In this document: positions 1,365-5,720 of the stretch, piece after piece
Layout: every line of letters starts with the position of its first letter
Numbering within the stretch: position 1 is the first letter of the stretch
Assembly: GCA_902607585.1 (NCBI GenBank)
Contig: CACLKP010000004.1
Span: 1-53,208, forward strand
DNA: 53,208 nt
Direction: 5' to 3'
DNA from: an uncultured Pelagibacteraceae bacterium
Lineage (GTDB): Bacteria; Pseudomonadota; Alphaproteobacteria; Pelagibacterales; Pelagibacteraceae
Made by a program: the position numbers and the translations under genes
The notes under the pieces: generated by a model
The model's input: only the letters and a program-made list of their open reading frames with translations
Told to the model about the DNA's origin: nothing
Databases searched by the model: none

Positions 1365-2366
1365 TTAAGGTTTTAAAACTTTTTGGTAAATCTCCCTTTT
1401 GAGAATATCAAAATTTGTTCTAAAAATAGGGTGATAATTATTTAGATAAGAACTAAATCTTTTATAAAAACCAAGTTTAGATTTTTCAAGTATATCTACT
1501 TTTATTACATTAAACGAGTTGGATGCGTGAGTAATTGCTCCATGGCATGATATTAAAATTTTTGAATTTCTTAACAATGACTCAATATCATCAAATGAAG
1601 GCTTATAAATTAGGTAAATCAGTTTGTTTAAATTTTTTTTTATGAATATTTTATCAGATATTTTTTCAAAGAATTTATTTTTTAGCCTATTTATAAGTTC
1701 TAAATCATTAATTCCAGTGGTGATTAAAATGTTATTTACTTTAGATATTTCATTTAAAAAATTGATAAATTCTTCATACTGGGGATTAATATTTGTATAA
1801 TTCTCTATATAAAATTCGTTAAACCATTTTTCATCAAGATGAATATGTATAAAGTCTTTTATCGAAATATTTTGTGAAAATCCGTTATCTTTTTTATGTT
1901 TTAAACAATCAAAATTGGTAATATCAGTGTTGATATTGCTACATTTTAATGAATCTTGATAAATTTTTATTAAATCAGTTGTTTCATCATCTTCAATAAA
2001 CTTTATATTAAAAATTTTCCAAAAAAAATTTATTCTGCTCTTTGATATAACTCCTACTTTATTTTTTGAGCTTAGAAATATTGACGATATTAATGATCTA
2101 TCTTTACCATCTAAGACGAGAACATAATCATATTTTTTTTTTGAGAGATTCATTATAAATTTAATCTTCTCTACCAAATTATTCTCCGGAAATTTTGTTA
2201 CATAATCAAAAAAATCAAGGGATTTAGCATAATCATGATTTTTTATTGAAGTAATTAATGTAATTTTAGAATTTTTTAAGTATTTTTTTATTGCGAGAAC
2301 TGCTGGGCAGGTAATAAGTAAATCACCTATACGATCGGTTCTAAATATTAGTATATTATTAACCAT
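1365..2366 (-). CDS. Glycosyltransferase family 9 (heptosyltransferase-like)
   Basis: A 333-residue protein of the GT9 family (ADP-heptose:LPS heptosyltransferase type), which transfers heptose or related sugars to lipopolysaccharide core on the cytoplasmic side of the inner membrane. The N-terminus NILIFRTDRIGDLLITCP is the hallmark GT9 start, with the GD motif near the acceptor site. Near the C-terminus, SCHGAITHASNS matches the conserved G-HGA-TH donor-binding region of the family. It runs convergently to the FkbM gene and lies 14 bp after the CgeB-like glycosyltransferase, in the same minus-strand glycan cluster. The exact sugar donor is not predictable, and the protein is divergent from WaaC/WaaF. 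Confidence 0.8.
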   Translation of the reverse strand: MVNNILIFRTDRIGDLLITCPAVLAIKKYLKNSKITLITSIKNHDYAKSLDFFDYVTKFPENNLVEKIKFIMNLSKKKYDYVLVLDGKDRSLISSIFLSSKNKVGVISKSRINFFWKIFNIKFIEDDETTDLIKIYQDSLKCSNINTDITNFDCLKHKKDNGFSQNISIKDFIHIHLDEKWFNEFYIENYTNINPQYEEFINFLNEISKVNNILITTGINDLELINRLKNKFFEKISDKIFIKKNLNKLIYLIYKPSFDDIESLLRNSKILISCHGAITHASNSFNVIKVDILEKSKLGFYKRFSSYLNNYHPIFRTNFDILKREIYQKVLKP

Positions 2367-2380
2367 TTAAAGTTTAATAA

Positions 2381-3361
2381 TTACTTATTTTCCCACATGT
2401 ACTTAGTTTTCCCATAATTTATTTCAAAAGTCTTATCAATAATATAATTAGCTACCACGGTTGAGTTAAAATATTTCATGTATTTCTTTTTTCCTTCTTT
2501 AGCAATTTTTTTTCGCGAATTATCATCCCTAGCAAATTTTTGAATTTTTTCAGAAAGGTTAGATAAATTTGAGTAAAATATTACTTCATCATTAGAAAAG
2601 AAATTATGATAAAGAGTATTCTCGTGAATAAAGGTGAGAAGTCCATTACCTATTAATTGAGTTAGTCTATCGCTACTATAATACTTTATTGGATTCCCTC
2701 TACTTAAGTTTACTCCCATTTTTGCATTAGAAATTGATTTAAAAAAAGAGTCGGCCCAAATAGGTTGGATATTATTTATTCCGTACAAATCAAATTTTAC
2801 ATTCGGAGTTATTTCAACCAGCCTATTAACAAAATCTGCTCTTTCATCATATTTACCTTTTTTTAATATACCTCTATGTACACCATGACTTAATGCGAAA
2901 AAAACATCCATGGAACAATTATTATTTTCAAAATTATTTAATACTTCAAAAGATGGGTCTGCAGGATTAGGCATAAATAAACATAACTTTTTTTTGGGTA
3001 AAAAATTTAATACATCTGGTGAAGTTGTCATAAAGTTTGCATCGGTAAATTCCATTTTATCTAATATTCTTAATTTATTTTTATTATAATCGGGACCATT
3101 TTTTATTAATGGATCAAGAAACCATTGTGCGGTTCTTAAATTCTTATAATTATCTTTCAAATATGCTAACGTTTTATCTTTGATTAAATCAGCATGTCCA
3201 AATATTAACAAGTCTGGTTTATAATTATAAACTGTGTTTATTAATTTTTCGTTTAAAGTTTTTGCTCCTGTATAGTCATTTAAGCTTTTATAATGTTTAA
3301 CGATATCTCTATCACTAAATTCTAATACACTATGACCTAATCTTATAAATCCATTATTCAA
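2381..3361 (-). CDS. CgeB-like glycosyltransferase (downstream half of a frameshifted gene)
   Basis: A 326-residue CgeB/GT1-type glycosyltransferase lacking its first residues. The C-terminal half contains the group-1 donor domain (YYSSDRLTQLIGNGLL, then a stretch ending in IAKEGKKKYMKYFNS). The only start in this frame is a TTG at 3361, and it begins abruptly at NNGFIRLGHSVLEFSDRD. The missing N-terminal strand, LRILHVTNFNERHDGRLF, is found at the end of the overlapping upstream ORF in another frame. Adding one T to the T7 run (3377-3383, minus strand) would join them as GRLF-FNTGRRLNNGFIRLGH. The intact gene was therefore probably one continuous GT4-CgeB fusion or, less likely, two overlapping genes. 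Neighbours support a role in polysaccharide assembly. Confidence 0.75.
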   Translation of the reverse strand: MNNGFIRLGHSVLEFSDRDIVKHYKSLNDYTGAKTLNEKLINTVYNYKPDLLIFGHADLIKDKTLAYLKDNYKNLRTAQWFLDPLIKNGPDYNKNKLRILDKMEFTDANFMTTSPDVLNFLPKKKLCLFMPNPADPSFEVLNNFENNNCSMDVFFALSHGVHRGILKKGKYDERADFVNRLVEITPNVKFDLYGINNIQPIWADSFFKSISNAKMGVNLSRGNPIKYYSSDRLTQLIGNGLLTFIHENTLYHNFFSNDEVIFYSNLSNLSEKIQKFARDDNSRKKIAKEGKKKYMKYFNSTVVANYIIDKTFEINYGKTKYMWENK

Positions 3362-4524
3362 TCTTCTTCCTGTATTAAAAAAAGCCTTCCATCATGCCGT
3401 TCATTAAAATTGGTGACATGCAAAATACGTAAACTTTTAGCTAAATTTAAATTAATTTTATTGGGATGAGTCGATATATTTAAAAGTTTATCTCTATAAT
3501 CATCTATATCTTTAGAGCTTACTTTATTTGTATGAAAAAAATACTTTATAGAAAGTTTTTGCATTTGAATTCTTTCTTTTTTGTTTTCAATTAAATTTTT
3601 TATTGCCCTGTAAACTGAATCAACGCTTAATTCTTTTAGAATAACACCATGAGTAACAGTTTCTGGTAAACCTCCCTTGTTACTAATAATAGTTGCGCAG
3701 CCCCTACTACTAGCTTCTAGGCTTGTTCTTCCTAAGGGTTCATCCCACCTGGAGCAAGCAACAGCTATACTTGTTTTTTCAAAAATCTTTAGTACTTTGT
3801 CGTGATTTATAAAACCAAGATTATTTAATCTTTTATGTTTGTAACTAAGTATGGCCCTAGGTTCATCACCAATAACTATAGCTTTCCAATTTTTGTATCT
3901 TTTTAAAATTTTCAGTACTGCCTGTCCAAATAAATCATAACCTTTCGCTTGATTAAGTTTACCAACAAAAGTAATCCATTTTTCTTTATTATTTAAATTC
4001 ACTTTTACCGCGTTGGTAGATTGATAAATCACAACCATTTTTTCAGAATTAATATGTATACCCTCTATGCCTTCTAAAAATCTCTTTCTTGACCAATGGC
4101 TGTTAAAGATAATTTTCGTAGCATGATTTAATAGTTTTTTTCTATCAGCAACAGATCGTGATCCAGTCATAGTAAGCGGATCGTTATGAAAATATAAGAT
4201 TATTTTTTTATTTTTAGTTTCATTAAAAATTAAATGAAAGTAGTTTGGACGATTATGTATTTCGATAATATCCGATGGCGATTCTTTTTCATATTTTAGA
4301 AACTGATACACATAAATTTTGCTTCCACTTTCGATTATATTCTTTTTTAAGAAAATATTCTTATACGAAAGTTTGTAAATATTTTTTATATTAGTATTAC
4401 CATAAACAGTTACATTTTTTCTGTACTTACTTATTTTTACTGTATCTTTTACAAATAATGAAACAGCTCCAGCATAAATTGGAGAAAAATTTTCTTTGTA
4501 AGGTAGTAAGATTGAAATTTTCAT
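3358..4524 (-). CDS. Glycosyltransferase family 4 (upstream half of an apparent GT4-CgeB fusion)
   Basis: A 388-residue protein whose first roughly 340 residues form a GT-B retaining glycosyltransferase of family 4. The N-terminal domain ends around IIFNSHWSRKRF. The donor domain starts at WITFVGKLNQAKGYDLF and carries the EX7E-like stretch EPLGRTSLEASSRGCATI. The last 25 residues (LRILHVTNFNERHDGRLF...) do not belong to GT4. They look like the first strand of the CgeB-like enzyme encoded immediately downstream, cut off by a frameshift at a T7 run. Its start ATG overlaps the stop of the GIY-YIG gene (ATGA, 4521-4524), implying translational coupling. Likely role: adding a sugar to a surface glycan; the donor is unknown. 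Confidence 0.82.
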   Translation of the reverse strand: MKISILLPYKENFSPIYAGAVSLFVKDTVKISKYRKNVTVYGNTNIKNIYKLSYKNIFLKKNIIESGSKIYVYQFLKYEKESPSDIIEIHNRPNYFHLIFNETKNKKIILYFHNDPLTMTGSRSVADRKKLLNHATKIIFNSHWSRKRFLEGIEGIHINSEKMVVIYQSTNAVKVNLNNKEKWITFVGKLNQAKGYDLFGQAVLKILKRYKNWKAIVIGDEPRAILSYKHKRLNNLGFINHDKVLKIFEKTSIAVACSRWDEPLGRTSLEASSRGCATIISNKGGLPETVTHGVILKELSVDSVYRAIKNLIENKKERIQMQKLSIKYFFHTNKVSSKDIDDYRDKLLNISTHPNKINLNLAKSLRILHVTNFNERHDGRLFLIQEED

Positions 4525-4772
4525 CTATACTTATTTTTTATTAAATTCCTCAATTTTTTATTTTTCTTTATATAACATTCTCTTAAAATAGCTTCACTTT
4601 TAGTTTGATATTTTTCATAATATATTATTTTCCAAGATCTTCCTTTAGTAAATTTTGCTCCTTTACCCGAGTTATGTAAATCAAGCCTTTTTTTGAGATT
4701 GTTTGTATATCCCACATATGTTGTTAATTTAGAAAATTTGTAATTTCCAATTAGATACACAAAATAAGTCAT
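4521..4772 (-). CDS. GIY-YIG nuclease-domain protein
   Basis: An 83-residue single-domain GIY-YIG protein of the YhbQ/UvrC-N type, about the usual length for these small proteins. The sequence shows YFVYLIGNY (the GIY strand equivalent), TYVGYTNNLKKRLDLHN (YIG equivalent plus the conserved Arg) and a later Glu in SEAILRECYIKK, as expected for the metal-binding glutamate. Such domains cut DNA, but the cellular role of the small free-standing ones is poorly known. It is the first gene of a minus-strand unit and overlaps the GT4 start by 4 bp, an unusual partner for a glycosyltransferase. The coupling may simply be chance packing in a recombination-prone region. Confidence 0.85.
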   Translation of the reverse strand: MTYFVYLIGNYKFSKLTTYVGYTNNLKKRLDLHNSGKGAKFTKGRSWKIIYYEKYQTKSEAILRECYIKKNKKLRNLIKNKYR

Positions 4773-5645: not shown

Positions 5646-5720
5646 TGGCGGTCCCACGGGGAATCGAACCCCGATTGGGTGATTGAAAACCACCTGTCCT
5701 AACCGTTAGACGATGGGACC
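5646..5720 (-). tRNA. tRNA-Glu (UUC)
   Basis: On the minus strand a 75-nt cloverleaf folds. The acceptor GGTCCCA pairs with TGGGACC, the anticodon loop is TTTTCAA (anticodon TTC), the T-arm contains GTTCGATTC, and the discriminator G is followed by an encoded CCA. Its 3' end points at the FAH and glycosyltransferase region, as expected if it once served as an integration site. Confidence 0.97.

Follow-up and report, generated by a model that had tools for sequence, protein, structure and literature searches.

The retaining GT-B enzymes of family GT4 with solved structures, among them MshA (3c48/3c4q), BshA, and HepE, are single GT-B enzymes. In Pelagibacteraceae, fused enzymes combining a GT4 domain with a PF13524 domain are encoded; L107 (AG-464-B15) and L112 (AG-464-P07) are two examples. 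As for genes broken at homopolymers, single-lesion frameshift pseudogenes at A/T runs are described in Buchnera and Blochmannia, where, according to the available parts of the reports (PMC5574713, PMC5009743), a one-base homopolymer change is found in an otherwise conserved frame. The gene considered here carries a lesion of the same kind. It is a predicted glycosyltransferase that has the fold of one GT-B unit in common with MshA, BshA, and HepE, at 14-19% identity to them. With the Pelagibacteraceae fusions it shares the domains, their order, the junction motif GRLFFNTGRRxNNG, and, for the two whose surroundings were inspected (L003 and L011), the GIY-YIG neighbour; unlike the fusions, it is out of frame at a T tract. 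Unlike the Buchnera and Blochmannia cases in the available parts of those reports (PMC5574713, PMC5009743), it concerns one gene of a free-living streamlined SAR11 bacterium and a short run. A literature search by title and abstract start (SAR11 frameshift, Pelagibacter phase variation, pseudogenes, CgeB) found neither this gene nor its break, and no work on homopolymer indels in single amplified genomes was found.

The window, i.e., the whole stretch of DNA analysed (53,208 nucleotides), is the fourth contig of an assembly of 723,634 bases in 43 contigs that is 55% complete. The window's genome is SAR11, Pelagibacteraceae-like; the named relatives of the gene belong to Pelagibacteraceae (SAR11), and many come from single-cell or metagenome assemblies. 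The following features make up the locus:

4521..4772, minus strand: GIY-YIG gene, just upstream of the GT4 frame, with a 4-base ATGA overlap
3358..4524, minus strand: GT4 half, a 388-aa frame with the full GT-B-type domain, followed by the initial strand and loop of the second one
3377..3383, minus strand: T7 tract (A7 on the plus strand), the point where the frame breaks
2381..3361, minus strand: second half, PF13524 glycosyltransferase-like, a 326-aa frame without strand 1 of its domain
1365..2366, minus strand: GT9-like gene, downstream of the second frame (TIGR02201, 4.5e-05, below the curated cut-off)

The first-pass annotation had noticed two frames split at the A7 run, which was confirmed on the sequence. 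The GT4 frame ends in GRLFLIQEED (read as ...RILHVTNFNERHDGRLFLIQEED), and is closed prematurely by a TGA at 3358-3360, the sixth codon counted from the tract. The second frame opens with TTG, followed by NNGFIRLGHSVLEFSDRD; this TTG, which aligns with an ordinary Leu codon of helix 1, overlaps the TGA and is preceded by a purine-rich, AGGAAG-like sequence. Membership of the GT4 frame in this family is indicated by matches above the curated cut-offs to Pfam Glycos_transf_1 (PF00534; 5e-23, 81.9 bits against 26.4) and Glyco_trans_1_4 (PF13692; 63.5 bits against 27). The second frame belongs to Glyco_trans_1_2 (PF13524; 2e-15, 57.4 bits against a cut-off of 25), which scores 68.5 bits in the intact relative L003. 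A complete N-terminal Rossmann half with strand 1 in one frame is not found in the window, where strand 1 lies in the other frame. The second domain had been called CgeB-like; the presence of PF13524 agrees with this in part, while the name itself, which we take to refer to Bacillus CgeB, is that of the first-pass annotation.

Comparison with relatives strongly supports the interpretation, proposed earlier, of a conserved SAR11 fused glycosyltransferase (GT4 plus PF13524, about 710 aa) apparently broken by the loss of one base. A scan of genome contigs revealed 360 stretches encoding a relative, and the best 80 were kept. All these best 80 of 360 have one open frame across the tract point, 704-719 aa in length from the match start, so the observed split is not due to chance, and the exact T8 is found in 35 of them. 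Seven of the nearest eight distinct copies have T8, reading CTTTTTTTTAAY, and one has TTATTTTTT, reading TTATTTTTTAAT. The window has one T fewer than the CTTTTTTTTAAY of the nearest relatives, in which the in-frame junction is GRLFFNTGRRLNNGFIRLGH or close variants. The joint GRLF-FNTGRRLNNGFIRLGH, predicted previously by adding one T, is exactly what the intact relatives encode, and the predicted size of about 710 residues is close to the 714 aa of the nearest intact relatives.

Taking the best 80 of 360 stretches could favour intact copies; a family search with the GT4 half is less biased in this respect. It matched 232 of 397 genomes, and 150 copies among the matches listed were counted by hand. 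The intact fusion, a comparison suggested in the first-pass annotation, is represented by 144 of the 150 copies listed, each with 701 aa or more in one frame. In five more of these 150 (G032:C73, G279, G282, G366, and G312), the contig stops short of the end of the gene, beyond the tract, and one frame is kept past the tract; the cut was read directly for four, and for G032:C73 it was taken from a match starting at contig base 3. Thus, among the 150 copies listed, only the window's copy is broken at the tract point. A second broken copy, L189 (G279:C10:42047-43186), has a TAA within the GT4 half, and its contig ends in the gene.

When the GT4 half was compared with 60 related genomes, copies with 37-79% identity were found in frames of about 600-725 aa, the exceptions being the 388-aa frame of the window and the 351-aa GT4-only gene of G030; weaker matches were other GT4 genes. 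A search of these 60 genomes with the second half recovers, within the same family, the long frames matched by the GT4 half, and the order's other family has stand-alone second-domain frames of 351-409 aa with 36-39% identity. Elsewhere in SAR11, the domains are encoded apart, as the GT4-only gene of G030 (L191, C1:774575-775600, minus strand) and as stand-alone second-domain genes in G036-G058; since they occur separately in these lineages, the fusion may be specific to one family. Viral contigs were also scanned for a relative, with 215 pattern matches, none of which was confirmed.

The position of the break was determined on a fold model of the intact L107 protein (37-sequence alignment, mean pLDDT 81.5, pTM 0.61). 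In the model, residues 366-371 form strand 1 of the second domain and residues 385-395 form helix 1; the loop that joins them is of low confidence and contains the tract, which corresponds to residues 381-383. The interdomain linker at 350-360 is also of low confidence, and the TTG of the second frame falls within helix 1. The best structural matches of the model are the solved GT4 enzymes MshA, BshA, and HepE (Foldseek E from 1.9e-14; query ranges were not printed), which indicates a GT-B fold like that of solved GT4 enzymes at the pTM of 0.61, and a profile match of residues 177-321 to 3c4q/3c48 was obtained. Separate genes with a normal start of the second domain were also sought. All five stand-alone relatives inspected start approximately 24 residues upstream of the fragment's TTG; near the N-terminus they carry the strand-1 motif (LHVSNF or LHISNF) followed by GRLFWN or GRLYWN, both located before the TTG point. 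Given these starts and the location of the TTG within helix 1, the second frame by itself does not make up a whole domain, and the second fragment is not a natural gene.

Relative to an intact ancestor, the gene carries an inactivating lesion, as a pseudogene does. Further decay or relaxed constraint was not detected in the columns and rates compared. Of the columns invariant in the other 80 copies, 100 in the first half and 99 in the second, none is altered in the window, the leave-one-out means for the other copies being 0.18 and 0.26. At codon positions 1+2, the terminal branch of the window has rates of 0.102 (first half) and 0.038 (second half), like those of ten intact relatives (0.028-0.122 and 0.005-0.106), third positions being saturated and rate ratios therefore rough. 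Since none of the 199 invariant columns has changed and the branch is not faster, the lesion appears to be young. Such lack of decay would equally fit a young lesion, an artefact, or a lesion made harmless by recoding.

The best explanation, to which we give about an even chance, is a real, recent one-base replication slip in this cell or its lineage, leading to loss of function. By the simplest route, replication slippage would shorten T8 to T7 at the start of the second domain. The ribosome would then read the GT4 domain and strand 1 of the second domain and meet the TGA at the sixth codon past the tract. Folding of the GT4 domain is probably preserved, whereas the second domain would be lost or, if ribosomes restart at the overlapping TTG, made as an N-terminally truncated piece. 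The likely effect would be a surface glycan without the step performed by the second domain. If the T7 allele is real, one cell or one lineage has lost a domain of a surface-glycan enzyme, and we infer that such a loss could alter phage recognition; SAR11 hypervariable surface genes and phage are discussed in the available part of PMC4053759. The split annotation does not reflect two genes and is neither a new enzyme pair nor proof of SAR11 phase variation. Apart from one unexplained codon bias, the finding is ordinary.

A real recent slip is only a little more likely than an artefact, i.e., a full-length gene in the cell from which one T was lost in amplification, sequencing, or consensus calling, an explanation that we rate as quite possible, if short of an even chance. 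A one-base homopolymer difference in a partial assembly of 43 contigs is what such an error would produce, and it would also agree with the lack of decay in both halves and with no other copy among the 150 listed being broken at the tract. However, a screen for frame breaks in the window and ten 20-kb stretches (253,208 bases, 35% of the assembly), with reference frames from G024, matched 236 reference frames and found one break in 253 kb, that of the window gene. The 179,650 matched bases contain 640 A/T runs of at least 7, and in a control with 100 one-base losses introduced by simulation, the detector picked up 50. One break among 640 runs makes a systematic homopolymer error unlikely; a single error could still have occurred. 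Homopolymer breaks are thus rare in the sampled 35% of the assembly, as seen by a detector that is half sensitive.

Recoding, by which −1 ribosomal slippage on U UUU UUA or transcriptional slippage would still yield some full-length protein, was among the earlier suggestions and now appears improbable. The T7 tract and the next A do form an in-frame CTT TTT TTA (U UUU UUA), from which a −1 shift enters the right frame; the slippery heptamer and the frame overlap of a programmed −1 frameshift are therefore present, and both halves look constrained. The same heptamer is given as the HIV-1 slippery sequence in the available part of PMC4373837. However, any loss of one T from a T8 that precedes AAY creates it automatically. 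Compared with shuffled sequences, the downstream RNA shows no better folding (z −0.36 for 110 nt and 0.14 for 55 nt), so that no stimulatory structure was evident in folding without pseudoknots, and synonymous variation round the site is normal. The split arrangement is conserved in no relative, all of the best 80 of 360 being in one frame. In addition, the available part of PMC5009743 reports that, in E. coli, A_AAA_AAG is far more prone to shifting than U_UUU_UUA, and that of PMC5574713 reports that frame-restoring transcription errors were not found in E. coli or Buchnera. According to the same portion of PMC5574713, transcriptional insertions rise with run length; selection against transcriptional slippage is evident from runs of nine in many genomes, as stated in the accessible text of PMC1088944.

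It is very improbable that the poly-T is a contingency switch and that the genome is in the OFF phase, another reading offered in the first-pass annotation. The gene is of the surface-glycan type, T8 is found in 35 of the best 80 of 360 relatives, and A/T tracts are argued to be a general switch in the part of PMC2831843 available. However, an off-phase copy at the tract was not found among the 149 others listed; off-phase alleles do not recur there, the window's being the only one in the 150 copies listed. Nor is the tract preserved: T8 shows 18 state changes on the tree, and the middle Phe of the junction, next after Leu, is TTC in 15 of 74 copies, the second highest TTC share of 26 Phe columns. 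It also lies mid-gene, whereas such tracts are found nearer the 5' end according to the available text of PMC2831843. Runs of 8 or longer occur 469 times in the 80 intact copies, and the junction is only the fourth commonest place for them in the gene (35 copies vs 47, 42, and 36).

The codon usage of the junction is uneven in another respect. Of 80 relatives, 49 have CTT as the codon of the junction Leu, vs approximately 18% of Leu codons generally, with 17 changes on the tree; this is the highest CTT share of 29 conserved Leu columns (the next is 0.44), and the window too has CTT before the tract. Codon context as the cause was not found in G024, where CTT makes up 16-19% in the contexts following Arg or AGA and preceding Phe. 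Selection for poly-T was also considered; against it stand the TTC share of the adjacent Phe, among the highest of the Phe columns, and the normal synonymous diversity in 12-codon windows over the junction (0.94-1.07 of expected; family mean 0.93). The CTT excess is a real oddity left without explanation. Lower synonymous diversity was observed in two other stretches, in 12-codon windows whose first column is 57-61 or 401-402.

The CTT choice is the single hint of a further reading, one with a very slim chance, in which slippage would occur naturally at the Leu-Phe-Phe-Asn junction of this SAR11 family and the proportion of one-domain to two-domain enzyme would depend on the length of the tract. 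In copies with T8, slipping by −1 on U UUU UUU would lead straight to UAA and give a GT4-only product, whereas in the T7 copy the same slip would give the fusion. A −1 slip yielding a shorter product has a parallel in dnaX. Gene fission into two working proteins, the second restarted at the TTG overlapping the TGA behind the AGGAAG-like, purine-rich stretch, is extremely improbable, as this TTG lies inside helix 1 of the intact-protein model and the five stand-alone relatives inspected start at or before the strand-1 motif, upstream of it.

As for the gene neighbourhood, the GIY-YIG gene and its overlap arrangement are also present in the relatives L003 and L011, both of which were inspected. 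The product of 1365..2366 weakly resembles LPS heptosyltransferases and may be GT9-like; with this gene, the surroundings can be read as a glycan-gene setting. A heptosyltransferase-like gene is located downstream of the fusion in the window, and a similar-looking one upstream in L008 (2649-3671, minus strand); given these opposite sides, the cluster may be rearranged. A tyrosine recombinase (PF00589) is encoded at 36-662 of the window (plus strand) and is 67% identical over 210 columns to the one that sits beside the GT4-only gene of G030 (L191, 658-1578, plus strand). The window recombinase aligns from residue 97 of the L191 copy only, where the window begins. A tRNA beside a recombinase is a common integration setting, and a tRNA-Glu is located at 5646-5720 of the window (minus strand), near the glycan genes and the recombinase.
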